Source: a virus. From it: a DNA stretch of 27,186 nt. Both the position numbers and the translations under genes were made by a program. A model generated the notes under the pieces. It did no database searches. It saw nothing but the letters and a program-made list of their open reading frames with translations, and had not been told where the DNA came from. Shown here one piece after another: positions 4,063 through 24,702 of this stretch. Location: positions 1 to 27,186 of the IMG/VR virus record IMGVR_UViG_3300022929_003229; one strand, written 5' to 3'. Positions within the stretch are counted from its first letter, which is position 1. Each line of letters begins with the position of its first letter.

Positions 4063-4067
4063 GATTC

Positions 4068-4143
4068 GCTATCGTAGCTCAGTTGGCAGAGCAGCTGATT
4101 TGTAATCAGCAGGTCGTCGGTTCGAATCCGACCGATAGCTCCA
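4068..4143 (+). tRNA. trnT: tRNA-Thr (anticodon TGT)
   Basis: Full cloverleaf of 76 bases. Acceptor GCTATCG/CGATAGC is perfectly paired. The D stem is GCTC/GAGC. The anticodon stem GCTGA/TCAGC has the loop TTTGTAA with anticodon TGT at 4101-4103. The T stem is GTCGG/CCGAC. CCA is encoded at 4141-4143. It reads the A-ending threonine codon favoured in this AT-rich genome and lies five bases after tRNA-Ala, so both probably come from one transcript. Confidence 0.97.
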
Positions 4144-5247: not shown

Positions 5248-5576
5248 AAAAATTTGGACCACAACATTACAAACCATTACCTGACGGATTGACTATTGCT
5301 AGTTCACCTATAAATGGTAATGGATTATTTACAAAAACAGATTTGAAAGCAGGTGCCTTTCTTGGTGTGACTCATGTATGGGAAGCAAATAGATGGGATT
5401 GGATAAGAACACCTCTTGGTGGTTTTATAAATCATTCAGAGGATCCTAATTGTTTTATCAATATGAATATTCATTATCATAATGGACAACAAAGAGAGTT
5501 GTATACAATTAAACCTATAGAAGAAGGTGAAGAATTAACTGTTTATTATACAGTAGGATATGATGATTGTGACTAA
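5244..5576 (+). CDS. SET-domain protein (putative lysine methyltransferase)
   Basis: 110 residues from the ATG at 5244, which overlaps the upstream TGA; an upstream in-frame start at 5208 would run inside the previous gene. It shows the minimal SET layout: a first strand with GNGLF (residues 25-29), the core pseudoknot motif NHSEDPNC (63-70), which matches the family signature for cofactor and active-site binding, then the second half of the knot EGEELTVYYT (94-103) with its tyrosines. SET enzymes transfer a methyl group from S-adenosylmethionine to lysine side chains. No pre-SET zinc domain is present. The target could be a host or phage protein; unknown. Confidence 0.8.
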   Translation: MKKFGPQHYKPLPDGLTIASSPINGNGLFTKTDLKAGAFLGVTHVWEANRWDWIRTPLGGFINHSEDPNCFINMNIHYHNGQQRELYTIKPIEEGEELTVYYTVGYDDCD

Positions 5577-6752: not shown

Positions 6753-7691
6753 ATGAAAGAAGAATTTCTATGGGTTGAAAAGTACAGACCTAGAAATATT
6801 TCAGAGTGTATATTACCAACTACAACAAAAAAGATATTTCAGGATTTTGTAAACAATAGTGAGATACCAAATCTATTACTATGTGGTACTGCAGGTGTAG
6901 GTAAAACTACTGTAGCAAGAGCACTATGTAATGAATTAGATGCTGACTTTGTATTGATCAATGGTTCAGAAGAAAGAAACATTGATACACTTAGAGTCAA
7001 AATCAAACAGTTTGCGTCTACAGTTTCACTAGGTGGTGGTCCGAAGATTGTAATTCTAGATGAAGCAGATTATCTGAATCCACAATCTACTCAACCAGCA
7101 CTTAGAGGTTTTATAGAAGAATTTTCTAAAAACTGTAGATTCATATTTACTTGTAATTACAAAAACAGAATCATTTCTCCATTACATTCAAGATGTAGTG
7201 TTGTTGATTTTACTATTGAGTCAAGTGAAAAACCACAGATAGCAAATGGTATCTTTCAAAGAGTATTAGATATTCTTAAACAAGAAAATATCGAATACAA
7301 TGAACAAGTAGTTGTTCAACTAATTCAAAAGTTCTTTCCGGATTTTCGTAGAGTACTTAACGAATTACAAAAGTATTCTTCATCAGGCAAAATAGATAGT
7401 GGAGTACTTGCAAATCTAGATGATGAATCATTAAGTGAAGTATTAGGTTTTATTCGTGATAAAGAATTCTCAAAAATGAGAAAATGGGTAGCGCTAAATA
7501 TACATAATGATCCACAAGCAATCTATCGAAAGATATACGATAGTTTGTTTACTAGAATGGAAAATAGTAGTATCCCTCAAGCAATCATTATCTTGAGTGA
7601 TTACACATACAAGTCAGCTTTTGTTGCTGATCAAGAAGTCAACATGGTAGCATGTATGACAGAGTTAATGATGGAGTGTAAAATAAATTGA
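6753..7691 (+). CDS. gp44: Clamp loader large subunit gp44
   Basis: 312 residues (T4: 319). AAA+ features in order: WVEKYRP N-terminal motif (residues 7-13), Walker A GTAGVGKT (45-52), Walker B VILDEAD (100-106), sensor 1 around TCNYKN (133-138), and the SRC arginine-finger motif (146-148). With gp62 it opens the gp45 ring using ATP and places it on primer junctions. In T4 the partner gene 62 follows directly; here it is about 5.5 kb downstream, after the 7-deazaguanine block. The TGA stop overlaps the TTG start of queD. Confidence 0.95.
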   Translation: MKEEFLWVEKYRPRNISECILPTTTKKIFQDFVNNSEIPNLLLCGTAGVGKTTVARALCNELDADFVLINGSEERNIDTLRVKIKQFASTVSLGGGPKIVILDEADYLNPQSTQPALRGFIEEFSKNCRFIFTCNYKNRIISPLHSRCSVVDFTIESSEKPQIANGIFQRVLDILKQENIEYNEQVVVQLIQKFFPDFRRVLNELQKYSSSGKIDSGVLANLDDESLSEVLGFIRDKEFSKMRKWVALNIHNDPQAIYRKIYDSLFTRMENSSIPQAIIILSDYTYKSAFVADQEVNMVACMTELMMECKIN

Positions 7692-8125
7692 AGTATCAAG
7701 TAATAAAAACATACGGTAATGAGACAGGACATTCATGTGCTTTCAGACAATGGAGAGCTGATTCTCATTGCAATTTAATTCATGGATATGCTTTGGGTTT
7801 TGAAATAACATTCGAAGCAGAAACATTAGACGATAGAAATTGGGTAATCGATTTCGGTGATTTAGGTATAGTTAAAGATATGTTAAAACAAACTTTTGAT
7901 CATACAACAGTAATAGCAAAAGATGATCCTTATATCGATACATTTATAAGATTACAAAAAGATGGTCTTATTGATCTTAGAGAAATGGATAATGTAGGTT
8001 GTGAAGCTTTTGCTGAATATGTATACAAATTTTGTGAAACAGAATTATCTAATGATAGAGTTAAAATAAAATCAGTTCGTGTATTCGAACATGGAGCAAA
8101 CAGTGCTGTATTCGGAAATTTTTAA
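7688..8125 (+). CDS. queD: QueD / 6-pyruvoyl-tetrahydropterin synthase family
   Basis: 145 residues, starting at TTG 7688 (TTGA overlap with gp44). It converts dihydroneopterin triphosphate to 6-carboxy-tetrahydropterin, the second step to preQ0. Seen: the catalytic Cys and zinc site in SHCNLIHGY (about residues 26-34), the catalytic Asp-His in TFDHTT (residues 69-74), and the late Glu in RVFEHGA. The family usually has HGH at the zinc site, here HGY; I recall the same change in phage members, so it need not be a defect. First gene of the 7-deazaguanine block. Confidence 0.88.
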   Translation: MKYQVIKTYGNETGHSCAFRQWRADSHCNLIHGYALGFEITFEAETLDDRNWVIDFGDLGIVKDMLKQTFDHTTVIAKDDPYIDTFIRLQKDGLIDLREMDNVGCEAFAEYVYKFCETELSNDRVKIKSVRVFEHGANSAVFGNF

Positions 8126-8957
8126 AAGTATTCAAGGTGAAGGACACTATACAGGTGTACCTACAACTTGGTTAAGATTTTTTGGTTGTAATTTAGAGTG
8201 TAATGGTTTTGGACAAGATGATCCGACTGATCCGTCAACATATAAATTACCATATAAAGACTTTGATATAATAGAAGTCAAGAATGTAGAAGATTTACCT
8301 GTATGGAAATATGGGTGTGATTCGTCTTACTCATGGTCAAAGAAGTTTGCTAAACTACAACACAAAGAATCAGAAGAAGAAGTTGCAAAGAAATTATTCG
8401 ATCAAATGTATAATCAAAATACTCACATAGCTTTTACTGGTGGTGAACCATTAATGAAAGCAGCTCAAAAGAAGACTGTAAAGATTCTAGAAGAAATGGA
8501 AAGATTGTGTCGTCAAAAGTTTGGTAAAAGATTTACAAATATAACTTGGGAAACGAATGGTACAAGACCAATGGAAACTGTATTACATAATCATCTAATG
8601 AGTATGAATGGTGAAGTTGAATATTTCTTTTCAGTAAGTCCGAAAATGTTTAATACAAGTGGTGAGAAAGATGCTGTATGTCCGGACATAGTAAAACAAT
8701 ATCATGATATATCAGAAGTTGGACAACTAAAGTTTGTTTGTAATGGTTCTGATGCATCATGGAATGAGATTGAAGAATCAATCGTTAAGTTTAGAAAAGC
8801 AGGTGTTATGTATCCGATATGGATAATGCCTGTAGGTGCAACAGAAGAATCTCAAGATGAAGTAGCAAAAGAAATTACACTTCAAACAATGGAAAGAGGT
8901 TACAATGTATCAGCAAGAGTACATTGTTATATCTTTGGTAATCAGATAGGTACATAA
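8103..8957 (+). CDS. queE: QueE-like 7-carboxy-7-deazaguanine synthase (radical SAM)
   Basis: About 284 residues. The start is chosen at GTG 8103, with GGAG at 8093-8096 six bases ahead; in-frame ATGs at 8079 and 8091 are alternatives. The opening YSEIFKSIQGEGHYTGVPTT is typical of QueE. It uses a 4Fe-4S cluster and SAM to contract 6-carboxy-tetrahydropterin to 7-carboxy-7-deazaguanine. The cluster cysteines are unusual: Cys29-x3-Cys33 in GCNLECNGF, then no nearby third Cys; the likely third ligand is Cys72 in YGCDSSYSW, after an insertion of 38 residues. The TGGEP motif of radical SAM enzymes is present. It overlaps queC by one base. Confidence 0.88.
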   Translation: MLYSEIFKSIQGEGHYTGVPTTWLRFFGCNLECNGFGQDDPTDPSTYKLPYKDFDIIEVKNVEDLPVWKYGCDSSYSWSKKFAKLQHKESEEEVAKKLFDQMYNQNTHIAFTGGEPLMKAAQKKTVKILEEMERLCRQKFGKRFTNITWETNGTRPMETVLHNHLMSMNGEVEYFFSVSPKMFNTSGEKDAVCPDIVKQYHDISEVGQLKFVCNGSDASWNEIEESIVKFRKAGVMYPIWIMPVGATEESQDEVAKEITLQTMERGYNVSARVHCYIFGNQIGT

Positions 8958-9658
8958 TGGATAAAGTATTAGTAGTATTAAGTGGTGGTCTGGATAGTTC
9001 AGTTGCAACTATGATGTGCGTTGATAAGTATGGTAAAGATAATGTTCAAGCTGTTACTTTTAATTATAATCAAAAACAAGTATTAGAGATTGATAGAGCA
9101 GGTGATTTGTGTACAGCTCTAGAGATAGAACATACAATTCTTGATTTATCAGTATTGGGTACAATAGCTCAACCAATGTCAGCAAACATATCAGGTACAA
9201 ATGTAGAAATGCCAAATATCAAAGAAGTATTAGGTGATCCTCAACCAGTAACTTATGTACCATTTAGAAATATGATTTTATTATCTATTGCAATGAGTCA
9301 TGCAGAAGTACAAGGTTGTAATAAAGTAATTACAGGTTTACAAGTTCATGATGAATATGGTTATTGGGACACAACTCAAAAGTTTGTTGATACAATGAAT
9401 GTTGTAGCTTCTCAAAATAGAACTCATTCAGTTGAGATAGAAGCACCTTTCAGTCATATGTCAAAAGCAGAAGAAATAGAAGTAGCAATAGAACTAGGAC
9501 AATTTGATTTACTTAGACATACATTAACTTGTTATAATCCACAAGGAATTCTATCTTGTGGTAAATGTCCTTCATGTGCTGAGAGAATAATGAATTTTAT
9601 GAAAGTAGGTCGTAAAGATCCAATTCCTTACGACATAGATATAGATTGGAAATTATAA
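8957..9658 (+). CDS. queC: QueC, preQ0 synthase
   Basis: 233 residues, a normal QueC length. The PP-loop ATPase motif SGGLDSS is at residues 9-15, and a four-Cys zinc site lies at Cys192, Cys201, Cys204 and Cys207 (CGKCPSC). The enzyme turns 7-carboxy-7-deazaguanine into preQ0 with ATP and ammonia. TAATG overlaps tie it to queE before and to the amidotransferase after. That second link matters, because fused amidotransferase-QueC proteins are known in archaea and phages for making archaeosine-type bases. Confidence 0.95.
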   Translation: MDKVLVVLSGGLDSSVATMMCVDKYGKDNVQAVTFNYNQKQVLEIDRAGDLCTALEIEHTILDLSVLGTIAQPMSANISGTNVEMPNIKEVLGDPQPVTYVPFRNMILLSIAMSHAEVQGCNKVITGLQVHDEYGYWDTTQKFVDTMNVVASQNRTHSVEIEAPFSHMSKAEEIEVAIELGQFDLLRHTLTCYNPQGILSCGKCPSCAERIMNFMKVGRKDPIPYDIDIDWKL

Positions 9659-10302
9659 TGTGTGCAATATTTGGTAGTAAAGATAAAGACAAGTTTTTAG
9701 AACTTGCTGAACTTAATCAATATAGAGGTAACTTCGCTTATTCAACAACTGTATTTCGAACAGGTATGTTTCAACATTATCCTGAAGCTGAAAAAGTTGT
9801 TCACATAACAACAAATACAGGTCATGGTGAATTTAAAGATTCAATTAATATGTCAAAGGAAGATTACAAAACAACATATTATCTTGGTCATGTTCAAGCA
9901 CCAACAACAGATAGTGTAGAAACGCACCCTTCAAATATTAATGGTGATTTACTATGGCACAATGGTATTATAAAAGATTATCAAGTTCAAGAATGGAAAC
10001 AAGAACTTGGTAATGTAGATTGGGATACTGAATTACTACATAGACATTTAGTTCTAGGTGGTGAATTAGATAATGTAGATGGTACATTTAGTTGTGCTAG
10101 ATACACTAAGGACAATTTATTTCTTTTTAGAAATGAGATTAGTCCTTTATTTTATGATGATGATATGAATATATCGTCAACTAAATTTGATGGTTCGTTT
10201 GAGACAGAAGCAGGTGTTATGTATCAAATGAATCTAGTGAATAATAGTCTTGAACCTTTATCTAGATTTGAGACTAAAGAAAACCCATATTATTTTGGGT
10301 GA
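9658..10302 (+). CDS. Class II glutamine amidotransferase (Gat domain, stand-alone)
   Basis: 214 residues from ATG 9658 (TAATG with queC); a longer in-frame start at 9646 would bury the catalytic Cys. The protein begins M-CAIFG, so Cys2 becomes the N-terminal nucleophile of an Ntn-type glutaminase. Other matches are LGHVQAPTTDS (about residues 80-90) and WHNGIIKDY (about 100-108), the usual asparagine and glycine-rich oxyanion region. It releases ammonia from glutamine. Its position next to QueC suggests the two act as a split Gat-QueC, converting preQ0 or a preQ0 base to the amidine (archaeosine, G+). A different amide acceptor is possible. Confidence 0.85.
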   Translation: MCAIFGSKDKDKFLELAELNQYRGNFAYSTTVFRTGMFQHYPEAEKVVHITTNTGHGEFKDSINMSKEDYKTTYYLGHVQAPTTDSVETHPSNINGDLLWHNGIIKDYQVQEWKQELGNVDWDTELLHRHLVLGGELDNVDGTFSCARYTKDNLFLFRNEISPLFYDDDMNISSTKFDGSFETEAGVMYQMNLVNNSLEPLSRFETKENPYYFG

Positions 10303-10347
10303 TTATATAATGAGTGTGACAAAACCACATGAAAAAATGGAGAAAAA

Positions 10348-11007
10348 ATGAAAACAGATAGAAAACTTGGACTAGAGGTTGCTAAATATCTAGTTGAAAA
10401 GGGTGTTGAAACACCTATTACTGAAACTTCTTTATCAGACGAGGAGAAGATAGAACTAATCAGAGACAACATGGAAATTGTTGTTGATGTATTGGGTCTA
10501 GATAGAGAAGATGATTCAATAGCTGGTACAGCGGATAGAGTCGCGAAGATGTATGTTTCTGAATTATGTTCAGGATTATCATATAATCGATTCCCGAAAG
10601 TATCAGTATTTGAAAACAAAATGGGATATGATCAAATGATCATACAGAAAGATATTACATTTCATTCATTATGTGAACATCACTTAGTCAACTTTAATGG
10701 TATGGCTCAAGTTGCTTACATACCAAATGACAATGTAGTAGGACTTTCTAAGTTAAATAGAATTGTAAATTTCTTTGCAAGAAGACCACAAGTTCAAGAA
10801 AGAATGACAGAACAAATTTTCTATGCACTAGAATACATTTTGGGTACTGATAATATTGCTGTTCTTGTACAAGCAGAACATCTTTGTGTAAAGTCTAGAG
10901 GTATTGGAGATCAAAACTCTGGTATGACTACATCTAAGTTAGGTGGTTATTTCTTTCACAAACATTCTGTAAGATCAGAATTTATGAAGTTAGCATTACA
11001 GTCATGA
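10348..11007 (+). CDS. folE: GTP cyclohydrolase I, FolE
   Basis: 219 residues, a normal type I FolE. Zinc ligands Cys109 and His112 lie in SLCEHH, and Cys180 in EHLCVKSRG. The motif GLSKLNRIV is also present, and GGYF is seen near the C-terminus. It converts GTP to dihydroneopterin triphosphate, the first step toward both folate and 7-deazaguanines. With queD, queE and queC this completes the GTP-to-preQ0 pathway. It has a GGAG site at 10337-10340. Its TGA overlaps the ATG of the DpdA-like gene. Confidence 0.95.
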   Translation: MKTDRKLGLEVAKYLVEKGVETPITETSLSDEEKIELIRDNMEIVVDVLGLDREDDSIAGTADRVAKMYVSELCSGLSYNRFPKVSVFENKMGYDQMIIQKDITFHSLCEHHLVNFNGMAQVAYIPNDNVVGLSKLNRIVNFFARRPQVQERMTEQIFYALEYILGTDNIAVLVQAEHLCVKSRGIGDQNSGMTTSKLGGYFFHKHSVRSEFMKLALQS

Positions 11008-12296
11008 AGTTTGAGTATGTAGTTTCAGGTCTAACTATGGGGATTGATGATCTCTATTACAATCCTGTAGTTGCTGCACCTTACATCAAACATATGAATC
11101 AAAAGATTACTGATCTAGATGCTAGATTTGATAATCAAAATTTATCATTGTTGTACAACGCACACCAAGAAAGAAAACATGGTGTGACTATGACAGAGAC
11201 AATGAATGATTCATGGCATCGTCTATTTGCTGACTCTGGTGGTCTTCAAATGGCAAGAACTAAAAAAGGTATTACACCTGAGTTAAAAGATAAAGTGTAT
11301 TATCATCAAGCAAAGTATTGTGATGTTGCAATGATATTTGATGAAATACCGATTGAGTTTGATCTATCACTTATTGGTGGTAATTCAATGAAAGCTTCAC
11401 TTACAGGTAGAAGGTTTGATAGAAGTGATATCAAAAGAGCTGCTCATGATACTTTAGAAAATGTCAAAAGACAGATTGAAGTTTTCAAACAAGAAGAATC
11501 AAAAGCAAAACTAATGTTGATCTCACAAGGTCAATCTGTAGATACATACAGAGAATATATTGAATATATTTGTCAAGGACTTGATGAAGAAGAAATCAAT
11601 ATGTTTGTATGTGGTGTTGCTCCAAGTTCACTATGTAATGGTAATTCATTTGCTCATAGATGTGAAATGATCTACGCTATGAAAGAATATCAGATACCTG
11701 ATGTTATCAAAGAGAATGTTCACTTGTTGGGTGTTGGTAATCATGAAGCGTTATCTCCTTTTTATCTATCACCAGATTATTTTAGTTTTATCAAAAACTT
11801 ATCTTACGATTCATCTTCACATGCATCATCATGGTTCTATTCTAGATATAGAAATAAAAACTTTGTTAATATAGATGTAGATGTTGTACATAGATCAAAG
11901 AAAGGATTATCTCAAATTCATTCTGATCAATTACTACCTGTCATTAATGAGATATTTGAATATGATAAAAATACATTAAATGATTTTGGTATTACTGAAC
12001 CGATGCAACTTATAAATGATTCAACAAAATGGTCAGAGTCTAATGTAAATGGTGATAGAAGATTTTGGAAAGATCATGATTCAGCAATACATGGTAGATA
12101 TTTGACACCATGGTTGTGGGTCACAAATACTATTGGTAACTTTATGATTGAATTAGACAGAAGAATAAAAAATCCTGTGGATACAACAGGTCTAGGATCA
12201 ATATCTTCTTATGATGAATTCATGACTAAATGGTTATCAAGACAAAGAGCTCCGGAGAAAGTGCCTGAACATTGGCCGGGAGTTTTAGATGTATAG
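11004..12296 (+). CDS. dpdA: DpdA-like / tRNA-guanine-transglycosylase-family enzyme
   Basis: 430 residues. It has the TGT-family motif FADSGGLQMA (residues 75-84; TGT uses DSGGFQ, where Asp is the general base). These are followed by the loops MIFDEIPIE (110-118), LISQGQS (172-178), CGVAPSS (203-209) and LLGVGNHE, which follow the TIM-barrel order of TGT. The rest of the chain differs from bacterial TGT and lacks its zinc-binding CxCxxC site, so it is not a tRNA enzyme of the usual kind. DpdA proteins exchange guanine in DNA for preQ0. Coupling to folE and the que genes supports that role. Confidence 0.82.
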   Translation: MKFEYVVSGLTMGIDDLYYNPVVAAPYIKHMNQKITDLDARFDNQNLSLLYNAHQERKHGVTMTETMNDSWHRLFADSGGLQMARTKKGITPELKDKVYYHQAKYCDVAMIFDEIPIEFDLSLIGGNSMKASLTGRRFDRSDIKRAAHDTLENVKRQIEVFKQEESKAKLMLISQGQSVDTYREYIEYICQGLDEEEINMFVCGVAPSSLCNGNSFAHRCEMIYAMKEYQIPDVIKENVHLLGVGNHEALSPFYLSPDYFSFIKNLSYDSSSHASSWFYSRYRNKNFVNIDVDVVHRSKKGLSQIHSDQLLPVINEIFEYDKNTLNDFGITEPMQLINDSTKWSESNVNGDRRFWKDHDSAIHGRYLTPWLWVTNTIGNFMIELDRRIKNPVDTTGLGSISSYDEFMTKWLSRQRAPEKVPEHWPGVLDV

Positions 12297-13553: not shown

Positions 13554-13948
13554 GTTATGACATAGACAATATGTTAGAAATATCATTTAAAGAAAATGAT
13601 GATTTTCTAAAAATCAGAGAAACATTAACACGGATTGGTGTGGCATCAAGGAAAGATAGAACTCTCTATCAGTCATGTCATATATTACACAAAAGAAGTA
13701 AGTACTATTTGGTACACTTTAAAGAATTGTTTGCTTTAGATGGTAAAGATTCATCTATAACAGAAAACGACATAGCAAGAAGAAATGCTATAGCAAGATT
13801 GTTAGAAGAATGGAATCTTTTAAAGATTGTTCATAGTGAACAAGCGTCAACACCTTTAGCACCAATGAGTCAAATTAAAGTGTTACCTCACAAAGAAAAA
13901 AACGATTGGAAACTGGTTGCTAAATATAACATTGGAGTCGCCAAATAG
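13550..13948 (+). CDS. regA: RegA translational repressor
   Basis: 132 residues (T4: 122). It matches T4 RegA closely in order: ETLTRIGVAS, the near-identical LYQSCHILHK, YLVHFKELFALDG, and near the end HKEKNDWKLVAKYNIG. RegA binds AU-rich sequences around start codons of phage early mRNAs, including those of the clamp, the clamp loader and its own, and blocks ribosomes. It has a GGAG ribosome site and overlaps gp62 by four bases. The start of gp43 at 26578 sits in such an AU-rich context. Confidence 0.93.
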   Translation: MSYDIDNMLEISFKENDDFLKIRETLTRIGVASRKDRTLYQSCHILHKRSKYYLVHFKELFALDGKDSSITENDIARRNAIARLLEEWNLLKIVHSEQASTPLAPMSQIKVLPHKEKNDWKLVAKYNIGVAK

Positions 13949-14730
13949 TGATCAATGATCTATCTGTTAAAGAAAAACGAGTATTATTTGCAAAGTTAGC
14001 TAAAATAGCGTACTCAAATTTAAAAGATGCTAGACTATCAGCAAAGTTATTAGGTTTTACAAAAACAGTCTTGTTTGATGTAGATGGTGCACAGACTTAT
14101 GTGTTCTCTAGTAAACATGATGTTGCAATAGCATGTAGAGGTACAGAACCTTCAGAAATGAATGATGTGTACGCTGACTTAGAAATATTCAAAGCTGATT
14201 CAGTATCAGGTAATAAAATTCATCAAGGATTCAAAGAAGAAGTCGATAAAGTCTATGATGATGTCGAAGAACTTCTTTCTAGAATATCAAAAAATAAATC
14301 TATTTGGGCATGTGGTCATTCACTTGGTGGTGCTATGGCAACGATTCTAGCACAGAGATTAGAATATAAAAATCATCATAATATAGATACATTATTCACA
14401 TTTGGTTCACCAAGAGCAGGTGGTCCTTTGTTTAGTCAATGGTGTGATGCTAATTTAAATCATCAAAGATTTGTAAATAATAATGATGTAGTTCCTTGTG
14501 TACCAACATACATTCGTTGGAGACACAATGGTAAATGTTTGTATATAAAATCTACAGGTGAAGTTAAAGAACTAGGTCGTTATTCAACTGAAAGAATTCG
14601 TGACAAAGGTTGGTCATTACTCAAAACAATTTTCAAAGGAAGACTAGATTTTATAGCAGATCATAATATGGACGATTATATTATGCATCTAGAAAATGAT
14701 CTAGAATATGATCAACTAGTCAATCAGTAA
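13948..14730 (+). CDS. Class 3 lipase (alpha/beta hydrolase)
   Basis: 260 residues, starting at GTG 13948, which overlaps the regA stop (TAGTG). It shows the lipase class 3 order: CRGTEPSE with the oxyanion strand (residues 63-70), the nucleophile elbow GHSLGG with Ser125 (residues 123-128), TFGSPRAGG (151-159), the catalytic Asp180 in NNNDVVP and His239 in ADHNMDDY. No signal peptide is visible, so it should act in the cytoplasm, perhaps on the inner leaflet during lysis or in infection-time lipid turnover. It is first in the insertion between regA and gp43. Confidence 0.88.
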   Translation: MINDLSVKEKRVLFAKLAKIAYSNLKDARLSAKLLGFTKTVLFDVDGAQTYVFSSKHDVAIACRGTEPSEMNDVYADLEIFKADSVSGNKIHQGFKEEVDKVYDDVEELLSRISKNKSIWACGHSLGGAMATILAQRLEYKNHHNIDTLFTFGSPRAGGPLFSQWCDANLNHQRFVNNNDVVPCVPTYIRWRHNGKCLYIKSTGEVKELGRYSTERIRDKGWSLLKTIFKGRLDFIADHNMDDYIMHLENDLEYDQLVNQ

Positions 14731-14731
14731 A

Positions 14732-14968
14732 ATGTATTCTTTAATTATATTATTGTTAAAGAGTATCATAGGATCCTCTTTTTACAAGTGGTTTCAAACT
14801 ACAACTTTCGGTATCTGGTTTCAAGACAAATTAGATTCTTTTATGGAGTATTTGTCACATAAATACGATATAGAACTAGCAAAAAAACAATCTAAATTTG
14901 AAGCTGATTATCCTTTGATTATGAAAAGGATAGAAGAACTAGAGAAGAAAGTAAATGAAAAGTCTTAA
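14732..14968 (+). CDS. Single-pass membrane protein with coiled-coil tail, 78 residues
   Basis: The N-terminal helix MYSLIILLLKSIIGSSFYKW (residues 1-20) is hydrophobic; the second half is charged, ending in a short coiled-coil-like stretch (IMKRIEELEKKVNEK). It starts one base after the lipase stop and overlaps the RimK-like gene by 14 bases. It could anchor or assist the lipase at the membrane; that is inference from position only. Confidence 0.6.
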   Translation: MYSLIILLLKSIIGSSFYKWFQTTTFGIWFQDKLDSFMEYLSHKYDIELAKKQSKFEADYPLIMKRIEELEKKVNEKS

Positions 14969-16013
14969 AGAATTCGTACAATTATCAGAAGATATCAAAC
15001 CTTATAATATTCTTGTTATAAGTCATTCTGGTGCTCAAGTCAGAGACACAGCAAGAGAAACACCTTCAACACCAATAATCGATAAGACAGCAAAACAACT
15101 AGGACTGAATGTTGTACATGCTGATTTTGTTGGTATGCACATGAATCCAATAGAAAATGGACACGAAATTCATTCTTTACCATTAGATGATGAATTACAA
15201 GTTATATTACCAGATCATAAAGGTGAATACAAATATCAAAAACCAATAAAAATAAATCAGTCTGATTGGATTATCATGCCGAGAGGATTAGGTACATTAG
15301 GTTTTACAGGTAGTAGACATTGGTATGATATGATGAGTTATCTTGAAAAAGAAGGTTATTTTGTTTTGAATTCAATAGATTGTTATGACTTATGTAATAG
15401 TAAATATATGAGTTACTTAAAATGTCTACAATACGATATTAGAACCCCTAAAACAGAACCTATTGTACATTCAGAAACAGTAGAAGATGTATTTAAAAGA
15501 TTGAATACTAATTTTCCTGTAGTATTGAAATCATCTTCTGGATCACAAACTGGTGTCGGTGTAGTTGTTGTAGAGAGTATGAGATCACTAAAAGCATTAG
15601 TACAAATGACTTTATTATATAATAAGTACTTATCTTTACTACTTCAAGAATATATTAAAATAGATTATGATATAAGAGTTATTGTTAATGAAGGTGAAGT
15701 TGTTGGTGCTATGAAAAGAAATGTTATGAGTGATGATATTCGAAGTAATGTTTCTATGGGTGCTACAGCTGAATCAATAGAATTAACAGAACTAGAAAGA
15801 ACAGAATCGATTAGAATAGCAGAAGAATTTGGTGGTAGACTAGTCGGTGTTGATCTTCTACCCTCAAAAGATAGAGAGAAAGAACTACCTTATTGTTTAG
15901 AAGTCAACGCAAACCCTGGTTTAAATGGTATAGAAGAAGTAGCTGATAAACCAACAAAAAGAATACTAGAAAAGTATAAAGATCGGTCAATTTGGCCGGT
16001 ATTAACACCTTAA
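14955..16013 (+). CDS. rimK: RimK-like ATP-grasp ligase
   Basis: 352 residues. The C-terminal ATP-grasp fold matches RimK closely: the glycine-rich ATP loop SSSGSQTGVGVV (193-204), QEYIKIDYDIRVIV (231-244), GAMKR (251-255), DIRSNVSMG (261-269), GVDLL (298-302), and the metal-binding EVNANPGLNGIE (316-327). RimK adds glutamates to the C-terminus of ribosomal protein S6. The N-terminal about 140 residues are longer than in RimK. A phage copy might modify host ribosomes or another acceptor; the phage-type start MKSLKEFVQLSE suggests it is long adapted to phage life. Last gene before a late promoter. Confidence 0.85.
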   Translation: MKSLKEFVQLSEDIKPYNILVISHSGAQVRDTARETPSTPIIDKTAKQLGLNVVHADFVGMHMNPIENGHEIHSLPLDDELQVILPDHKGEYKYQKPIKINQSDWIIMPRGLGTLGFTGSRHWYDMMSYLEKEGYFVLNSIDCYDLCNSKYMSYLKCLQYDIRTPKTEPIVHSETVEDVFKRLNTNFPVVLKSSSGSQTGVGVVVVESMRSLKALVQMTLLYNKYLSLLLQEYIKIDYDIRVIVNEGEVVGAMKRNVMSDDIRSNVSMGATAESIELTELERTESIRIAEEFGGRLVGVDLLPSKDREKELPYCLEVNANPGLNGIEEVADKPTKRILEKYKDRSIWPVLTP

Positions 16014-16628: not shown

Positions 16629-16943
16629 ATGGATATATTAGGTCTGATCGCAGAGGTCGGAGCACCAATAGCAGGAGCGTTGGTGATGGGATTCTTTATC
16701 TTCTTAGTACTAAAACAGATTTTAGACGGAGTTATAGATGACATCAAAACACTAACAGGTTTCTGTAAAATGTTAGAAGACAGAGCAAGAGTTGGTAGTA
16801 ATGAGTTGATAAAAATTGACTTATTAGTTAGTAGTGCTTTAGAATTGACTCCACCAATAGACAGAGTAGCACGAGCTGAGAACTTTAGAACGAATGAAAA
16901 AGGTCAACCTCAGAATGTGAAACTTGATGTGAGGAGAGATTGA
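16629..16943 (+). CDS. Single-pass membrane protein A, 104 residues
   Basis: First gene after the late promoter, with GGAG at 16615-16618. A short N-terminal helix (MDILGLIAEVGAPI) leads into a transmembrane helix at about residues 13-31 (PIAGALVMGFFIFLVLKQIL), followed by a soluble charged half. It shares its layout with the next gene product (a G-P-I turn, then MGFFIFLVLK versus MGYFIYFVWK), so the two are probably paralogues from a tandem duplication. A holin or a membrane anchor for the fibre system are possible; neither is shown. Confidence 0.7.
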   Translation: MDILGLIAEVGAPIAGALVMGFFIFLVLKQILDGVIDDIKTLTGFCKMLEDRARVGSNELIKIDLLVSSALELTPPIDRVARAENFRTNEKGQPQNVKLDVRRD

Positions 16944-17266
16944 TGGACGGAATGGATGCTTTAGCTCAAGCTATAAGTGATTTTGGATTTCCCATTATAA
17001 TGGCTCTAGGAATGGGATATTTTATATACTTTGTATGGAAATATATTACAGATAAACTAGAACCTGAGATAGAAACAATGCATCTAGCACTTATTAAGTG
17101 TATTGATGCGAATCGTATGTTAGATAACGATATGATTAGATTACAACAAAAAGTGAAAGTTGTACTAGAATATCGTGAAAGACAAATGATTTTAGAGGAT
17201 GCTGAAGAAAAAGAAGCTTTAGCTAAGGTAACTAGTGAAAAACAGGAAAGAAAAAATAAGAAATAA
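16943..17266 (+). CDS. Single-pass membrane protein B, 107 residues, paralogue of A
   Basis: The start is set at ATG 16943 with GAGGAGA at 16931-16937; a TTG at 16940 also opens this frame. The N-terminus (MDGMDALAQAISDFG) is followed by a transmembrane helix at about residues 16-34 (FPIIMALGMGYFIYFVWKYI) and a long helical, highly charged tail that is likely a coiled coil. It resembles gene A upstream in size, topology and helix sequence. The final 32 bases overlap the CsgF-like gene. Confidence 0.7.
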   Translation: MDGMDALAQAISDFGFPIIMALGMGYFIYFVWKYITDKLEPEIETMHLALIKCIDANRMLDNDMIRLQQKVKVVLEYRERQMILEDAEEKEALAKVTSEKQERKNKK

Positions 17267-17795
17267 TTTAGAGTTAGTCGCTTTAATTAGTATATTTGTA
17301 TTTGGTTTAGTAGGTTTAAGCCCTAGTGTACATACAGATGAACTTACTCATAAATTTAAAAATCCTAGCTTTTCAGGTGTAGGTACATCAGCACATTATC
17401 TCACTATTGAGAACCAAGAAAAGTCTAGACGAGATGCTATACAAAAAGATATAGAATCAGCTTTATTAGCAGCTCAGAGAGAAGCTGAAAACACAACAAT
17501 GGCTAAGTTCATAAGGAACTTAGAAAGCCGTATTTACTCACAACTTTCAAAACAATTAGTTGATTCATTATTTAAACAATGTGATTTAACATTAGATCCA
17601 ACCTGTGTAGAATCTGATTTTGGTAGTTTTGCTTTAGAAGGTAATACAATATCATATCTAAAAACAACTTGTGATACAGAAGCAATGACAGGGTGTGTTC
17701 TCGGTGAAGAAGTTATTGTTTTAACTATTGTTGACGAAGACGGAACAGAGACAATTATAACCATACCAATTGGTAATGGTTCATTCGGAGGTTAA
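17235..17795 (+). CDS. csgF: CsgF-like curli assembly protein
   Basis: 186 residues from GTG 17235; no ATG is available nearby. A signal or membrane helix (about residues 13-32) is followed by a mature start DELTHKFKNPSFSGVGTSAHYL. This matches the CsgF pattern F-x-N-P-x-F-G-G at the mature N-terminus, the part which in bacteria plugs into the CsgG pore. The middle holds a helix with LESRIYSQLSKQL (compare the Q-S-x-I-L-x-x-L helix of CsgF), and the end (VIVLTIVDEDGTETIITIPIG) matches its C-terminal strands. It is longer than E. coli CsgF (138), with a four-Cys insertion at about residues 115-153. Directly followed by csgG, as expected. Confidence 0.82.
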   Translation: MKNRKEKIRNNLELVALISIFVFGLVGLSPSVHTDELTHKFKNPSFSGVGTSAHYLTIENQEKSRRDAIQKDIESALLAAQREAENTTMAKFIRNLESRIYSQLSKQLVDSLFKQCDLTLDPTCVESDFGSFALEGNTISYLKTTCDTEAMTGCVLGEEVIVLTIVDEDGTETIITIPIGNGSFGG

Positions 17796-18659
17796 GTGAA
17801 CTTTAGGATAGGGATAGGTGTTGTTAGCCTTCTACTATTAAGTAGTTGTGCATCTATGGTAAGTGTAAAAGGAATACACGATACTAACTGTGCAAGTTTT
17901 GTTGAGTGTGCAGAAGAACCTAAAACTATAGAATTACCAACACACGAAAAACTATTGAATCTACCACCAGCTGTAGAAAAACCTGTTATAGCAGTTTATA
18001 AGTTTTTAGATAAAACAGGTCAAAGAAAACAGAAAGGTGATGCAGCTATGTTTAGTACAGCAGTATCACAAGGTACAGAGACTATGTTAATTGATGCTCT
18101 GAAAACAGCGGGTGATGGTACATGGTTTCGTGTAGTAGAAAGAGTTGGTATAGACCATTTGACTAGAGAGCGTCAAATAGTAAGAACAACAAGAGAAGCG
18201 TATCAAGAGGAGAAAAAATTAGCACCACTCTTATTCGCTGGGATTATTCTTGAAGGTGGTATTATTGGGTACGATACCAATATAGAAACTGGAGGAAGAG
18301 GTGCTAGATATCTTGGCATAGGTGCTCAACAAGCTTACCGTAGAGATATCGTAGTTGTTCACTTGAGAGCAGTAAGTGTTCTTACAGGTGAAATTTTATT
18401 AAATGTACAAACATCAAAGACAATTTTATCGGTCGCTGAAGGATTTGATGTGTTTAGATTCGTTGAGATGGATACTCAGTTAGTAGAAGTTGAAGACGGA
18501 ATGACCGAGAATGAGAGTGTAACCAGAAGTGTAAGATCAGCAATCGAAGCTGCTGTTTACGAATTAATTCTTCAAGGCGATGAAAGAGGTTTTTGGACAA
18601 TTCAATGGCCAGAAGAAACTAATAATAACGAGGAAAAAGAAAATGAAAATGTTAAATAA
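17796..18659 (+). CDS. csgG: CsgG-like outer-membrane curli secretion pore (lipoprotein)
   Basis: 287 residues from GTG 17796, right after the csgF stop. A lipobox LLSSC places the lipidated Cys at residue 18. CsgG matches in order: IAVYKFLDKTGQ (residues 65-76), WFRVVERVGIDHLTRERQIV (about 108-127), LLFAGIILEGGIIGYDTNI, then GIGAQQAYRRDIVVVHLRAV and TGEILLNV. CsgG forms a nine-part outer-membrane channel that exports curli subunits. The length is near the bacterial form (277), with an acidic tail added. A phage version would let infected cells export the curlin-like proteins encoded next to it. Confidence 0.95.
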   Translation: MNFRIGIGVVSLLLLSSCASMVSVKGIHDTNCASFVECAEEPKTIELPTHEKLLNLPPAVEKPVIAVYKFLDKTGQRKQKGDAAMFSTAVSQGTETMLIDALKTAGDGTWFRVVERVGIDHLTRERQIVRTTREAYQEEKKLAPLLFAGIILEGGIIGYDTNIETGGRGARYLGIGAQQAYRRDIVVVHLRAVSVLTGEILLNVQTSKTILSVAEGFDVFRFVEMDTQLVEVEDGMTENESVTRSVRSAIEAAVYELILQGDERGFWTIQWPEETNNNEEKENENVK

Positions 18660-19371
18660 AATTTTAGCATTAGTATTATTTACACCAACTTTATTATTTG
18701 CTGAAGCAACAACTGATAATGCAATCAAACTTGATCAAACAGGTGATACTCTTACATTAACTATTGATCAGATTGGATATGGTAACAAATTATGTGGATC
18801 CATATCAAGCGGACTATGTGGTTCAGCAATGGTAATTACAGGTACAACTAATACAATTAATTTTGATATGATTGGTAACATGAACAAAATTTATGGACCA
18901 ATGATTCTCGATCAATCTACTTATAGTGTCAATATGACAGGTAGTAGTAATGATTGGGATCAGACTATTGGTGCATCAGGTTCAGCTGACTCATCTAACT
19001 TATTAGCAAATTGGACAGGTAGTTCAAACACTATGGACTTAGATTGGGGAGCAGCTCAATCTTCTGAAAGACTAGATTTTGATTTAGATGTTACAGGTAG
19101 TTCTAATGTATTTACAACTGTTGTTGAAGTTGACGACGCAACATACGATTTAGATGTTACAGGTAGTTCAAATGATGTTAATACAAGTCAAACTGATGGA
19201 GCTTATCATAAAATTGATTTAGAGTTAATTCAGTCTAATGGTAATATTGATATTGTTCAGAGTTCTGGAACATGCCCTAGTGGTGTAAATTCGTGTCATA
19301 GTGAACTGATTGCAGATTTTGATAGTGAAAATGCTACAATTACAATCAATCAAAAAGATACTGGCGATTAA
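18643..19371 (+). CDS. Curlin-like exported repeat protein 1
   Basis: 242 residues from ATG 18643, with AGGA at 18631-18634; the frame is open further upstream inside csgG but only this start gives a signal peptide (MKMLNKILALVLFTPTLLFA, cut before EA). The mature protein is poor in Lys/Arg and rich in Asn, Ser, Thr, Asp and Gly. It has curlin-like pieces such as TLTIDQIGYGN and ATITINQKD at its ends and four exact TGSSN repeats at residues 99, 125, 151 and 173, spaced 26, 26 and 22. This is a beta-solenoid type pattern. It is the likely CsgG substrate and fibre subunit. It overlaps csgG by 17 bases. Confidence 0.8.
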   Translation: MKMLNKILALVLFTPTLLFAEATTDNAIKLDQTGDTLTLTIDQIGYGNKLCGSISSGLCGSAMVITGTTNTINFDMIGNMNKIYGPMILDQSTYSVNMTGSSNDWDQTIGASGSADSSNLLANWTGSSNTMDLDWGAAQSSERLDFDLDVTGSSNVFTTVVEVDDATYDLDVTGSSNDVNTSQTDGAYHKIDLELIQSNGNIDIVQSSGTCPSGVNSCHSELIADFDSENATITINQKDTGD

Positions 19372-20491
19372 TTTTTGTCTATTTACTACTTTTGTTTATG
19401 CAAATGATATAGGTGATATAACAGAACACAATGGTAGTTCTGGTATAGTAAGAGATACAGGTGAAACTTTATCCGGTGGAATCGGAGAAGACATATACTT
19501 TAAAGATTCTATAGAAACAGCTCAAGGTAGAATGAACATCAAGTTTATTGATGAAACTAACTTGAAGTTGACAGAGCATACCGAAGTAGTAATAGACGAA
19601 TATTATTTTGATCCTGATCCCTCAAAGTCAAAAATGGCTATGAGTTTTGTATCAGGCACAGCTAGATTTACAACAGGTAAGTTGGGTCTAGTACCAAAAG
19701 AAAATATCGTCATTACAACACCAACGGCAACGATTGGTGTTCGAGGCACAAGTTTTACAACTAGTGTAGATGAACTTGGTCGGAGTTTAGTAATACTTCT
19801 ACCTGAAACAGAATGTACAGTTGATGGTGATTGTAGTCCGTCTGGTGAAATAACAGTTACGAATGAAGGTGGTGTAGTTGTTTTGAATGAAGCATTTCAA
19901 GCTACAATGGTGTCTAGTATATCGACACCACCTGTACAACCTGTAGTGTTAGATAATATTATGAATTTAGATGCAATAGATAATATGTTTATTGTATCAC
20001 CACCACAAGAAGTTCAAGATGCTACAGACGAAGCTGCAGAAACTCAAGATGATAGTAGTGACAGTCTTCTAGATTTTAATGATCTTGATATAGATTATTT
20101 AAAAGAAGATTGGGATGATGGTGGTGAAGATTTAGAGTTCTCAGAACTTGATATAGATTTATTAGATGTTGACTTTCTTCAAGATGTTCTTAAACTTTTC
20201 GAAGAAGTAAACATTTTAAAACAGAAACAAAGAGACAAAGGTAAAACAGGATCCACTGAAGGTAACATAGTGGGTACAGCATTGGGATTCGATAAGAATA
20301 CTCAATATAATACAATAATAGATGATTCAACAGGTCAGATATGGTTTTATAGAGAAGTTAACGGAATCATAGATATAAGAGTACCAATTGAATCAGCAGT
20401 AAAAATAGAGAGTGAAAATGAAGGTGTTAAAAATTCAATTATTGTTAATGACGGCGATAGTGTCGTTATTATCATTAAACAGTCTGGCTGA
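19331..20491 (+). CDS. Exported FecR-domain protein
   Basis: 386 residues from ATG 19331; earlier in-frame ATG 19310 would spoil the signal peptide, which reads MLQLQSIKKILAINFCLFTT and ends at FVYA-ND. Residues about 55-155 form a FecR domain with FKDSIETAQGR, MSFVSGTARFTTGK and the signature TPTATIGVRGTSF (130-142). After this comes a very acidic region (about 225-300) and a C-terminal beta stretch. FecR domains bind or sense periplasmic partners; such proteins are often found next to CHASE2 cyclases in bacteria. Its first 41 bases overlap the curlin-1 gene. Confidence 0.85.
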   Translation: MLQLQSIKKILAINFCLFTTFVYANDIGDITEHNGSSGIVRDTGETLSGGIGEDIYFKDSIETAQGRMNIKFIDETNLKLTEHTEVVIDEYYFDPDPSKSKMAMSFVSGTARFTTGKLGLVPKENIVITTPTATIGVRGTSFTTSVDELGRSLVILLPETECTVDGDCSPSGEITVTNEGGVVVLNEAFQATMVSSISTPPVQPVVLDNIMNLDAIDNMFIVSPPQEVQDATDEAAETQDDSSDSLLDFNDLDIDYLKEDWDDGGEDLEFSELDIDLLDVDFLQDVLKLFEEVNILKQKQRDKGKTGSTEGNIVGTALGFDKNTQYNTIIDDSTGQIWFYREVNGIIDIRVPIESAVKIESENEGVKNSIIVNDGDSVVIIIKQSG

Positions 20492-21236
20492 TCCTAATCA
20501 TATTCATTTAGATCAAGTCGCTACAGGTGGTAGTGATAATTTAAATCTAAGTATTGAACAGATTGGACATGATAATTTAATTAGATTTTCTTTTGATCAC
20601 AATAACAACACTATTAATCTTTTACAATTAGGAAATAAAAACTATATTGGTTATACTGATGCATGGGGTTCAGGATATAGTTGGGGTGGTGATTTAGACG
20701 GACTAAGAAATAATATAGATATTCGTCAAAAGTGTTCAACTTCAAATTGTAATGATAACGATTTTCAATTTCATATTTGGGGTGATGACAATACAGTAAA
20801 ATTTGGACAAGGTTATTCATTGAATGATACTTCTAACTGGTCACCAACTTGGGACTATGACGGTAATGAACCAGGTGGAAACTTTGTAAGATTAGATATA
20901 CATGGTGATGATAATAAATTTATTGGAAGTCAAAAGATGGATACAAGTAGTATATCACATTCTATGACTGTAAATATATACGCTGATGATAATGATGTAT
21001 TCGCTAGACAAGCACAGAATGGTGACAAAACATTAACTCTTACAATTAACAATGATGGTAATGATGTATGGATTAATCAAAGAGACAATGGTGCACATAC
21101 GGCAACAATCGAATTGAATGGTGCTTATCCTACAGATTTAGATTTACTACAAAAAGGAAATACATCTCAATCATATTCTTTATCACAAAATTGTCAGACA
21201 GCTAGTGGTTGTTCGATTAGTGTAACTCAACAATGA
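20418..21236 (+). CDS. Curlin-like exported repeat protein 2
   Basis: 272 residues from ATG 20418 (a GTG at 20412 is possible). Signal peptide MKVLKIQLLLMTAIVSLLSL, cut after NSLA. The mature part has curlin-type repeats I-E-Q-I-G-H-D-N (47-54), L-L-Q-L-G-N-K-N (68-75) and repeated GDDN or ADDN turns at residues 122, 163 and 189, each preceded by a short beta strand. It shares low-charge, Asn/Asp-rich composition with curlin 1 but not its TGSSN repeats, so it may be a minor subunit or nucleator. Its first 74 bases overlap the FecR gene and its TGA overlaps the cyclase ATG. Confidence 0.78.
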   Translation: MKVLKIQLLLMTAIVSLLSLNSLADPNHIHLDQVATGGSDNLNLSIEQIGHDNLIRFSFDHNNNTINLLQLGNKNYIGYTDAWGSGYSWGGDLDGLRNNIDIRQKCSTSNCNDNDFQFHIWGDDNTVKFGQGYSLNDTSNWSPTWDYDGNEPGGNFVRLDIHGDDNKFIGSQKMDTSSISHSMTVNIYADDNDVFARQAQNGDKTLTLTINNDGNDVWINQRDNGAHTATIELNGAYPTDLDLLQKGNTSQSYSLSQNCQTASGCSISVTQQ

Positions 21237-23083
21237 AACTAACTTCTATTTGGTCATGTATAATAGTTCTTGTCAGTTTAATCGGACTCAGAGTTTATGA
21301 TCCTGATATTATAGAACAACTCAGAGTAATCAATTTTGATTATTATCAGAAAGCAGAAGAACAAGTTCAAAACGAATCGATAGTTCTTATCGATATCGGA
21401 GAAAAATCTTTAGAACAATTTGGTCAATGGCCATTTCCAAGACATCAATTTGCTCAGATGATATCAGATTTAAGAAACAGTAATGCTGGTGTGATAGGAT
21501 TCACTACTATGTTTGCTGATGTAGATAGATTTGGTGGTGACGAGATATTTTCATCTTGGGTAAAAGATAATGGTATTGTTTTGTCATCAACTACATCTCA
21601 GAAGGGGTTAGAAAGTGTAGCACCTCATGTAGGAACTGCTACTTTAGGTAATGGTGATGCAACAACCTTTGCTTACAGGTACAACTCTATAGTAAATAAT
21701 ATACACGGATCAGCTGCTGATGGGGTAGGAATGTTATCGTCATCTCCAGAAGTTGATGGTTCAGTAAGAAGAATACCATTAGTCATTTCAGTACAAAATA
21801 AATTATATCCTAGTTTTGGTATGGAAACAGTTCGTGTCATGGCGAACAAAAAATCATATACAATGAAAGTAGAAGAAACAGGTATTGAGAATATGAGAAT
21901 ACCACCATATGAACCTGTTAAAACAGATTACACAGGATCAATATATGTAGATTGGACTAATACTTTTGAGAGATATCAATATGGTGATGTTCTACCTGAT
22001 CTTCAAGGTAAAACAGTTATCATTGGTACAACAGCAGAAGGTATCTCACCATTAGTTACTACGCCAATGGGTCTAAAATATCCTCATGATATTCAAGCAT
22101 CAGTAATTCATACTCTTACAGGTGGTAAACAAATTAGTAGACCTCAATGGGTTCTATTGGGTGAGGTAAGTCTAATGTTTTTCTTGGGACTAATACTTCT
22201 CCTATCGGTTTATCATTTACCGATATGGTTATCAGCTTTAGTTTTCGGTGGGAGTGTAACCGGCGTTGTCTTCGCTGGGTTTGAAGTCTTCGCTTCCGGA
22301 ATCTTGATTGATTTTTCATATCCCCTTATCTTATTGATACTTATATTTAGTCATTCGAGTTTTAACAACTTCTATGTTCAGTTCAAACTCAAACAACAAA
22401 TTAAAGGACAGTTTGGTACTTACATATCACCTGAATATGTTGATATGATTGTCAAAGATCCAAGTCTAATGAAACTAGGTGGTGAAAGAAAAGAGATGAG
22501 TTTCATGTTCGCCGACATTGTTGGATTCACACCCATAAGTGAGCGTTATATGAAAGAAGATGATCCAGAGGGATTAGTAGAATTGATCAATGAGTTTCTA
22601 GATAAAATGACTAAGATTGTATTAAAGAATGGTGGTACTATTGATAAGTATATGGGCGATTGTATTATGGCATTTTGGAATGCTCCGATCCTTTGTCCTA
22701 ATCATGCTGAGATGGCTGTTAAAACATCAATCGAAATAGAACTTCTAGGTGACGAACTAGAAGAAAAGATGAAAGATATGGGATTACCAAGAGTCAAATT
22801 TGGTACTGGTGTGAATACGGGTGTATGTATTGTAGGTAATATGGGTTCAGAAACAAGAATGGATTATAGTGTTGTTGGTGACGCTGTTAATCTTGGAGCT
22901 AGATTAGAAGCACAAACGAGACAAGAAGATACACCTATAATCGTGTCTGAATATTCGTATCTTCAATGTAGTGATATACCAATGAGTATATTAGGTGAAG
23001 TCAAAGTCAAAGGTAAAGAAGAACCTGTTAAAATGTACGCACCAATAATAGATGGTGAGGTTCGTAAACTTTACAAAGATTGA
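21233..23083 (+). CDS. CHASE2-domain class III adenylate cyclase
   Basis: 616 residues. One N-terminal membrane helix (4-20), an extracytoplasmic CHASE2 sensor (about 25-300, with IDIGEKSLEQFGQWPFPR and VIIGTTAEG), then three membrane helices (about 306-372) and a cytoplasmic cyclase domain (about 420-605). Catalytic residues are complete: Asp428 in FMFADIVGFT, Lys472 and Asp476 in DKYMGD, Asp550 in VVGDAVN, Asn553 and Arg557. Lys472 and Asp550 are the residues that select ATP over GTP, so it should make cAMP. The length is normal for bacterial CHASE2 cyclases. It is the last gene of the operon, coupled by ATGA to curlin 2. To my knowledge a full membrane cyclase is very unusual in a phage. 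Confidence 0.95.
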   Translation: MKLTSIWSCIIVLVSLIGLRVYDPDIIEQLRVINFDYYQKAEEQVQNESIVLIDIGEKSLEQFGQWPFPRHQFAQMISDLRNSNAGVIGFTTMFADVDRFGGDEIFSSWVKDNGIVLSSTTSQKGLESVAPHVGTATLGNGDATTFAYRYNSIVNNIHGSAADGVGMLSSSPEVDGSVRRIPLVISVQNKLYPSFGMETVRVMANKKSYTMKVEETGIENMRIPPYEPVKTDYTGSIYVDWTNTFERYQYGDVLPDLQGKTVIIGTTAEGISPLVTTPMGLKYPHDIQASVIHTLTGGKQISRPQWVLLGEVSLMFFLGLILLLSVYHLPIWLSALVFGGSVTGVVFAGFEVFASGILIDFSYPLILLILIFSHSSFNNFYVQFKLKQQIKGQFGTYISPEYVDMIVKDPSLMKLGGERKEMSFMFADIVGFTPISERYMKEDDPEGLVELINEFLDKMTKIVLKNGGTIDKYMGDCIMAFWNAPILCPNHAEMAVKTSIEIELLGDELEEKMKDMGLPRVKFGTGVNTGVCIVGNMGSETRMDYSVVGDAVNLGARLEAQTRQEDTPIIVSEYSYLQCSDIPMSILGEVKVKGKEEPVKMYAPIIDGEVRKLYKD

Positions 23084-24246: not shown

Positions 24247-24702
24247 ATGACTATAAATGAAGCAATCTGGAGAGAACTCTCTCCTTTCACAATCGGCTTT
24301 GACAATATGTTTACACAATTGGACAGAGTTCGACAAATACCACAAACTAACTATCCACCTTACAATATTCGTAAAGGTTCTACAGAGGATACATTCTTAA
24401 TTGAACTAGCAGTAGCTGGGTTCGGTGAAGAAGATTTAACAATTACTGTTAAAGAAAACAATCTTACTGTAGAAGGTGATATCGGTGAGAAAGATAGTGG
24501 GTTTGTTCATCAAGGAATCTCACAAAGAAAATTCTCTAGAAATTTTGTTCTAGCAGATGATGTTGTGATTAAAGGTTCCGATCTTTCGAATGGTATTCTA
24601 ACCATTTACGCTGAAAGAATAGTTCCAGAAGAAAAGAAAGCTAGAACTATTGAGATTGGTAGTCTCAAAAAATCAGATAAGAAAGTATTTCTATCTGAAT
24701 AA
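24247..24702 (+). CDS. hsp20: Hsp20 small heat-shock protein
   Basis: 151 residues with a strong AGGAGG ribosome site (24237-24242). The alpha-crystallin domain (about residues 36-135) includes YNIRKGSTEDTFLIELAVAGF, the conserved A-x-x-x-G-L equivalent LSNGILTIYAERIVPE (118-133), and the core strand LTVEGD. Small heat-shock proteins bind unfolding proteins without ATP. T4-like marine phages often encode one, perhaps for late virion assembly. Preceded by its own late promoter, and followed by an inverted repeat and a new promoter, so it may be a one-gene transcript. Confidence 0.93.
   Translation: MTINEAIWRELSPFTIGFDNMFTQLDRVRQIPQTNYPPYNIRKGSTEDTFLIELAVAGFGEEDLTITVKENNLTVEGDIGEKDSGFVHQGISQRKFSRNFVLADDVVIKGSDLSNGILTIYAERIVPEEKKARTIEIGSLKKSDKKVFLSE

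Follow-up and report, generated by a model that had tools for sequence, protein, structure and literature searches.

A CHASE2-adenylate cyclase at the end of a marine phage curli cassette and its possible role in sensing fibre export

A T4-like marine phage encodes a predicted membrane adenylate cyclase with a periplasmic CHASE2 sensor, and this cyclase is the last gene of a phage curli (type VIII secretion) cassette. We put the chance at about even that this receptor-type class IIIb cyclase reads the FecR protein and/or curlin of its own cassette in the periplasm and reports on the fibre system via cAMP. Curli cassettes occur in phages throughout the ocean and still lack an explanation. The CHASE2 receptor, its old pairing with FecR and a sensor that appears to be inherited with the fibre genes lead to a testable idea, a self-monitoring signal for fibre export.

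The cyclase and the cassette around it

The window, which is the whole stretch of DNA analysed here, is the 27,186-base IMG/VR virus record IMGVR_UViG_3300022929_003229 (positions 1 to 27,186). The original prediction, made without the cassette context, claimed a full-length membrane CHASE2-adenylate cyclase in this phage and overlooked that the genes upstream of it form a curli cassette. The genes of the cassette and the domains of the cyclase are as follows:

16629-16943, plus strand: TMA, a small single-helix membrane protein, paralogue of TMB (hydropathy; no kinase domain)
16940-17266, plus strand: TMB, a small single-helix membrane protein with a coiled-coil-like tail (hydropathy; no kinase domain)
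17235-17795, plus strand: CsgF (PF10614, E = 6.2e-8, which exceeds the curated cut-off)
17796-18659, plus strand: CsgG, the outer-membrane curli secretion pore lipoprotein (PF03783, E = 9.2e-52)
18643-19371, plus strand: curlin 1, a curlin-like secreted repeat protein (repeats common to bacterial curlins; weak NCBIfam CsgA match, E = 0.004)
19331-20491, plus strand: FecR-domain protein without a membrane helix beyond its signal peptide, the proposed partner of CHASE2 (PF04773, E = 5e-12; hydropathy)
20418-21236, plus strand: curlin 2, a curlin-like secreted repeat protein with a signal peptide and predicted repeated beta strands (Curlin_rpt matches of its relatives; model)
21233-23083, plus strand: predicted CHASE2-class IIIb adenylate cyclase, 616 aa (Pfam CHASE2, E = 2.4e-39; PF00211, Guanylate_cyc, E = 9.5e-19; PHROGs family phrog_35576 over the full length, E = 2.8e-187; AlphaFold model, mean pLDDT 91)
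21305-22141, plus strand: periplasmic CHASE2 sensor domain (residues 25-303), flanked by helix 6-22 and helices 305-395 (Pfam, hydropathy, model)
22484-23050, plus strand: class III cyclase domain, residues 418-606, with D428, K472, D476, S546, N553 and R557 (Pfam, residue alignment; nearest structure 3r5g)

The cyclase is a single open reading frame of exactly 21233-23083, and this frame, the Pfam domains and the helices of the model agree with the full-length membrane protein that had been claimed. In the AlphaFold model, a helix at residues 6-22 is followed by an alpha/beta domain that starts at 25 and ends near 303, by three helices (305-328, 331-354 and 362-395) and by the cyclase fold. 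The sensor and membrane helices are thus complete in the model, as was also claimed, and hydropathy agrees with this arrangement. The predicted topology is that of a CHASE2 receptor cyclase, with an N-terminal helix, CHASE2 outside, three helices and the catalytic domain inside. The nearest single-domain cyclases in the PDB were P. aeruginosa CyaB (3r5g) and S. platensis CyaC, and a TM-score of 0.87-0.88 over the target assigned the catalytic half to the cyclase fold of 3r5g. The CHASE2 half matched no solved structure in sequence.

The six catalytic residues are all present: D428 and D476 for the metal, K472 and S546 for base recognition, and N553 and R557 for the transition state. K472 and S546 are the ATP-type pair, which bears out the earlier statement that the class III residues, including the two that select ATP, are intact. 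Judged by its residues (two Asp, Lys with Ser/Thr, Asn and Arg), the protein is a probable class III (IIIb) adenylate cyclase, and cAMP is its predicted product. Mammalian cyclases have Asp as the second base-recognising residue. This residue is Ser in 72 of the 80 best bacterial relatives, as in the window protein. Among 84 viral sequences, both Asp, the Lys and the Arg are kept in all and the Asn in 83, while position 546 is Ser in 81 and Thr in two. The sole viral exception is Melnitz, in which position 546 is Asp and the transition-state Asn at 553 is replaced by Ser. The dN/dS against relatives was 0.06-0.20, which shows purifying selection on the cyclase.

The cassette has the order of the pelagiphage type VIII secretion module (CsgF, CsgG, curlin, FecR, second curlin, cyclase), preceded by the two small membrane proteins, and the identity of the window curlins is weak when taken alone. 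Neither of them reaches the Pfam curlin-repeat model. Their repeat family matches curlins from bacterial csg operons, and 5 of 20 relatives of curlin 2 matched Curlin_rpt (best E = 8.2e-6). Curlin 2 was modelled as a succession of short beta strands (pLDDT 75), and a structure search with it against the PDB gave no significant match. The paralogous TMA and TMB (16629-17266) lie upstream of CsgF in 43 of 44 loci checked. A classical FecR anti-sigma regulator has a membrane anchor and an adjoining FecI sigma-factor gene. The FecR protein of the window has no anchor beyond its signal peptide, and no sigma-factor gene was found among the neighbouring proteins scanned, so it does not fit the FecIR anti-sigma type; its relatives also start signal-peptide-like.

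An assembly chimera with bacterial DNA had been discounted earlier on the grounds that the cyclase overlaps its phage neighbours by ATGA. This overlap exists only upstream, where the TGA ending curlin 2 overlaps the ATG of the cyclase, and there is no such overlap downstream. The gene is not a chimera, because a second IMG/VR contig (L002) encodes an identical protein over 616 aa and the gene order recurs in isolated phages. Promoter and terminator scans stayed at chance level.

Other genes of the window were noted as well. Directly upstream of the curli cassette region lie a class 3 lipase, a small protein and a RimK-like ATP-grasp ligase (13948-16013), and on the other side of the cyclase, downstream, an HSP20 small heat-shock protein (24247-24702) is kept in several near relatives. 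A gene run at 7688-12296 resembles 7-deazaguanine synthesis and transfer, with a PTPS/QueD-like member by Pfam and QueE-, QueC-, FolE- and transglycosylase-like members judged by eye, which suggests DNA hypermodification. A SET-domain protein (E = 8e-11), here in a phage, is encoded at 5208-5576.

Distribution, bacterial relatives and split evolution

The cyclase was thought to be hardly described in phages, and this view did not hold: GenBank names it in HTVC008M and Melnitz, a PHROGs family covers its full length, and a pelagiphage curli cluster including FecR and adenylate cyclase was published in 2022 (PMC9599517). The cyclase-bearing curli module is already known and the existence of the cyclase is not news. 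The new points are CHASE2 as the sensor, its interpretation together with FecR, the separate evolution of the sensing and catalytic halves, and the apparent lack of a cAMP receptor.

Using tblastn, GenBank phages with the cyclase were found to be HTVC008M (43.8% identity) and four Melnitz isolates (35.2%), and both kinds carry the whole cassette in the same order as the window. At least 597 IMG/VR stretches encode a related cyclase. The gene is not rare, and it is kept in sister phages. The upstream genes were surveyed in the best 80 of these stretches and the annotated Melnitz locus. All 44 loci with at least 5.5 kb upstream had CsgF, CsgG, curlin and FecR on the same strand, and in 32 of them a second curlin lay between FecR and the cyclase. 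In the reverse direction, all 32 viral CsgG loci with 5 kb or more of downstream DNA had FecR and the cyclase there. Both samples consist of the closest relatives of the window, and in the relatives examined the linkage of the cyclase to CsgF-CsgG-curlin-FecR is obligate. Some podophage versions of the cassette are without the cyclase and the second curlin, and FecR occurs there without a cyclase (PMC9599517).

The bacterial comparison set contained the best 80 bacterial relatives, which are mostly alphaproteobacterial and 29-35% identical. In a tree, 34 viral sequences grouped together in a single clade, separate from 33 bacterial sequences (SH-aLRT 100), so the phylogeny separates the viral cyclases from bacterial CHASE2 cyclases. 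A FecR gene was found within 200 bp of the CHASE2 cyclase in 22 of the 80 bacterial loci, compared to 0.35 expected from the FecR density in the same flanks. Sixteen of these 22 neighbours are upstream on the same strand, and several are very large and repeat-rich. Similar pairs have been reported: CyaD1 (CHASE2) of S. meliloti adjoins the FecR gene smc02177 (PMC5498481), CHASE2 cyclases of Campylobacterota are clustered with a FecR outer-membrane protein (PMC9239204), and a Burkholderia biofilm operon has LysM-FecR with a CHASE2 histidine kinase as output (PMC5192318).

Curli genes were missing from this bacterial setting. CsgG, CsgF and curlin were found at none of the 80 cyclase loci (flanks of at most 10 kb, less where contigs were short), and CsgF in none of 40 genomes among those of the cyclase relatives. 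CsgF was present in 6/385 alphaproteobacterial and 6/369 gammaproteobacterial genomes. No FecR or CHASE2 gene was seen within about 8 kb at five alphaproteobacterial CsgF loci examined, and curli-bearing genomes that have CHASE2 carry it elsewhere, over 1 Mb distant or on a different contig (11 curli-bearing genomes by position). Capture of a whole bacterial curli and cyclase operon was considered and rejected, being unseen in the 80 cyclase loci, 5 CsgF loci and 11 curli-bearing genomes. Because the bacterial loci examined show the FecR/CHASE2-cyclase pair without curli genes, the cassette looks as if a curli operon had merged with such a pair. We infer that bacteria had long used this pair for signalling before it joined a curli operon. 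No single bacterium with both together was found, though one may exist.

To compare the two halves of the cyclase, pairwise distances were calculated over 41 non-redundant viral modules; these distances are not independent. CHASE2 distances correlated with those of FecR (0.73), curlin 1 (0.74) and CsgG (0.67), compared to an r of 0.18 with the cyclase domain of the same protein (5-95% range 0.08-0.24 on subsampling). The excess of FecR and curlin over CsgG was small (partial r about 0.19-0.29, with the same dependence among distances). Single pairs gave the same picture: contigs L017 and L025 are 93% identical in CHASE2 and 64% in the cyclase domain, L022 and L028 86% and 62%, and Melnitz and HTVC008M 61% and 38%. 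The Melnitz gene (L083:12001-14052) appears to have a swapped, possibly altered catalytic domain, with the Asn-to-Ser change and Asp at 546.

DNA of two further contigs, L044 and L049, was aligned. Upstream they are unrelated (50-64%), the cassette through CHASE2 is 73-97% identical, and identity falls within the cyclase domain (85, 79, 72), after which the DNA is dissimilar (~60%). The high identity starts about 6 kb upstream of the cyclase and spans only the curli cassette in otherwise dissimilar backbones. Due to this pattern, the cassette seems to be transferred from phage to phage with a 3' breakpoint that falls within the cyclase gene, and the sensor therefore stays with the genes presumably read by CHASE2. 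The breakpoint pattern may simply reflect homologous recombination where the sequence is conserved. The sensor half seems to be inherited with the fibre genes and the catalytic half to be reassorted or exchangeable.

What the cyclase may sense and report

In the preferred reading, CHASE2 would read the periplasmic state of the cassette's FecR and/or curlin, such as arrival, build-up or a secretion block. The signal would release the inhibition by CHASE2 of the cytoplasmic cyclase dimer, which would then make cAMP in the infected cell and report on the surface-fibre system. CHASE2 is likely to be inhibitory until the signal arrives, because CyaD1 without CHASE2 is constitutively active in S. 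meliloti (PMC5498481). The parts, predicted topology, intact active site, linkage and selection come from the sequence, and from there we infer the ligand, the activity and the direction of control.

Self-sensing is supported by the complete cassette linkage, by the FecR pairing in bacteria, by CHASE2 distances that follow FecR and curlin 1 and by the conserved active-site residues. Several points weigh against it. CHASE2 tracks CsgG too, smc02177 is dispensable for plant-signal perception in S. meliloti (PMC5498481), and some podophages have FecR but no cyclase. The Asn-to-Ser change of Melnitz and the lack of a cAMP-binding domain in SAR11-like genomes and phage records also count against it.

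The receptor was sought in three SAR11-like genomes, which are single contigs of 1.20-1.34 Mb with about 29% GC and an alphaproteobacterial permuted tmRNA. Neither the cyclic-nucleotide-binding domain PF00027 nor class III cyclases were found in them. PF00027 was also absent from seven phage records, including the full HTVC008M and Melnitz, and a phage-encoded cAMP receptor was rejected on this basis. Literature searches returned nothing relevant on a SAR11 cAMP receptor. The absence of PF00027 from the SAR11-like genomes and phages suggests that SAR11 has an unconventional receptor or that the circuit matters in other hosts, which makes the output side a checkable question. Seven of seven marine or alphaproteobacterial genomes searched, six of them chosen for carrying a related cyclase, have cNMP-binding proteins. 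The original prediction that cAMP could reshape host transcription is thus doubtful for a SAR11 host and possible for others. The tRNAs leave the host of the window ambiguous between alphaproteobacteria and SAR86: for tRNA-Ala(TGC) and tRNA-Thr(TGT) at 3987-4143, the SAR11-like genomes give matches no better than those in SAR86 and an alphaproteobacterial single-cell genome. We consider it doubtful that the phage has a cAMP circuit of its own, in which the cassette would sense its amyloid export via CHASE2 and signal in hosts without a class III cyclase or known cAMP receptor; an undescribed receptor of host or phage would then be required.

Another possible explanation, which follows the original prediction and which we rate as rather improbable, assigns the cyclase a general part in host takeover. 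The enzyme would sense some unrelated signal in the periplasm (envelope stress, redox or nutrient) and act through cAMP on host CRP-type regulators, and the curli linkage would be mere co-transfer. The intact active site and the cNMP-binding proteins of all seven genomes fit this explanation, as does the tRNA evidence, by which the host may have CRP. However, the curli linkage is complete both ways in the sampled phages, and it is the sensor half, not the catalytic half, that follows the curli genes. Also, HTVC008M infects Pelagibacter (GenBank record), yet the SAR11-like genomes have no PF00027 protein.

It is unlikely that CsgG forms an ungated pore by which the cassette brings about lysis or import, with the cyclase timing or reporting pore opening. 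This would extend the 'pinholin' proposal of the Melnitz authors, who modelled CsgGF as a gated pore (PMC9004378), and phage cassettes are not known to have a CsgE gate (PMC9599517). However, the encoded curlin-like subunits mean that a pore-only reading leaves conserved genes unexplained, and the window encodes a phage lysozyme.

The loss of the transition-state Asn in Melnitz could indicate that the cyclase is inactive and retained in the cassette as a passenger or decoy, but this is very unlikely given the low dN/dS and the six catalytic residues kept in nearly all of the 84 relatives. Finally, a Pycsar-like anti-phage cyclase making cCMP or cUMP is highly improbable, since the match to PADLOC PycC profiles (best 1.3e-20) spans only the fold common to class III cyclases, bacterial CHASE2 cyclases have the same ATP-type pair as K472 and S546, and no effector (PycTIR/PycTM) was found among the four neighbours tested, none of which matches any PADLOC model.

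Comparison with known systems

The published pelagiphage cluster (PMC9599517) is alike in its marine phages and its genes: two small genes, CsgF, CsgG, CsgA/B, FecR, CsgA/B and adenylate cyclase. CHASE2 goes unmentioned in that paper. The genes before CsgF are labelled histidine kinases there, whereas here they encode single-helix proteins of about 100 aa, with no kinase domain in 23 relatives, and the label may be wrong. FecR is labelled an iron-dependent regulator; here it is a secreted protein without the classical anti-sigma anchor.

The closest named phage proteins are homologous over their full length and occupy the corresponding position in their cassettes. HTVC008M AGE60353 is annotated as an adenylate/guanylyl cyclase, and Melnitz QZI94833 has a divergent cyclase domain. 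Melnitz is said to lack csgA and csgB (PMC9004378), but its record annotates two curlin-repeat proteins.

P. aeruginosa CyaB (3r5g) shares the class IIIb fold, with 36% identity in the structural alignment, and differs in that the structure covers the catalytic domain only. Bacterial CHASE2 cyclases, such as CyaD1, have the same domain order and active site and are often paired with FecR. In contrast to the phage cyclases, which form a separate clade, they have curli genes at 0/80 loci and CsgF in 0/40 genomes.
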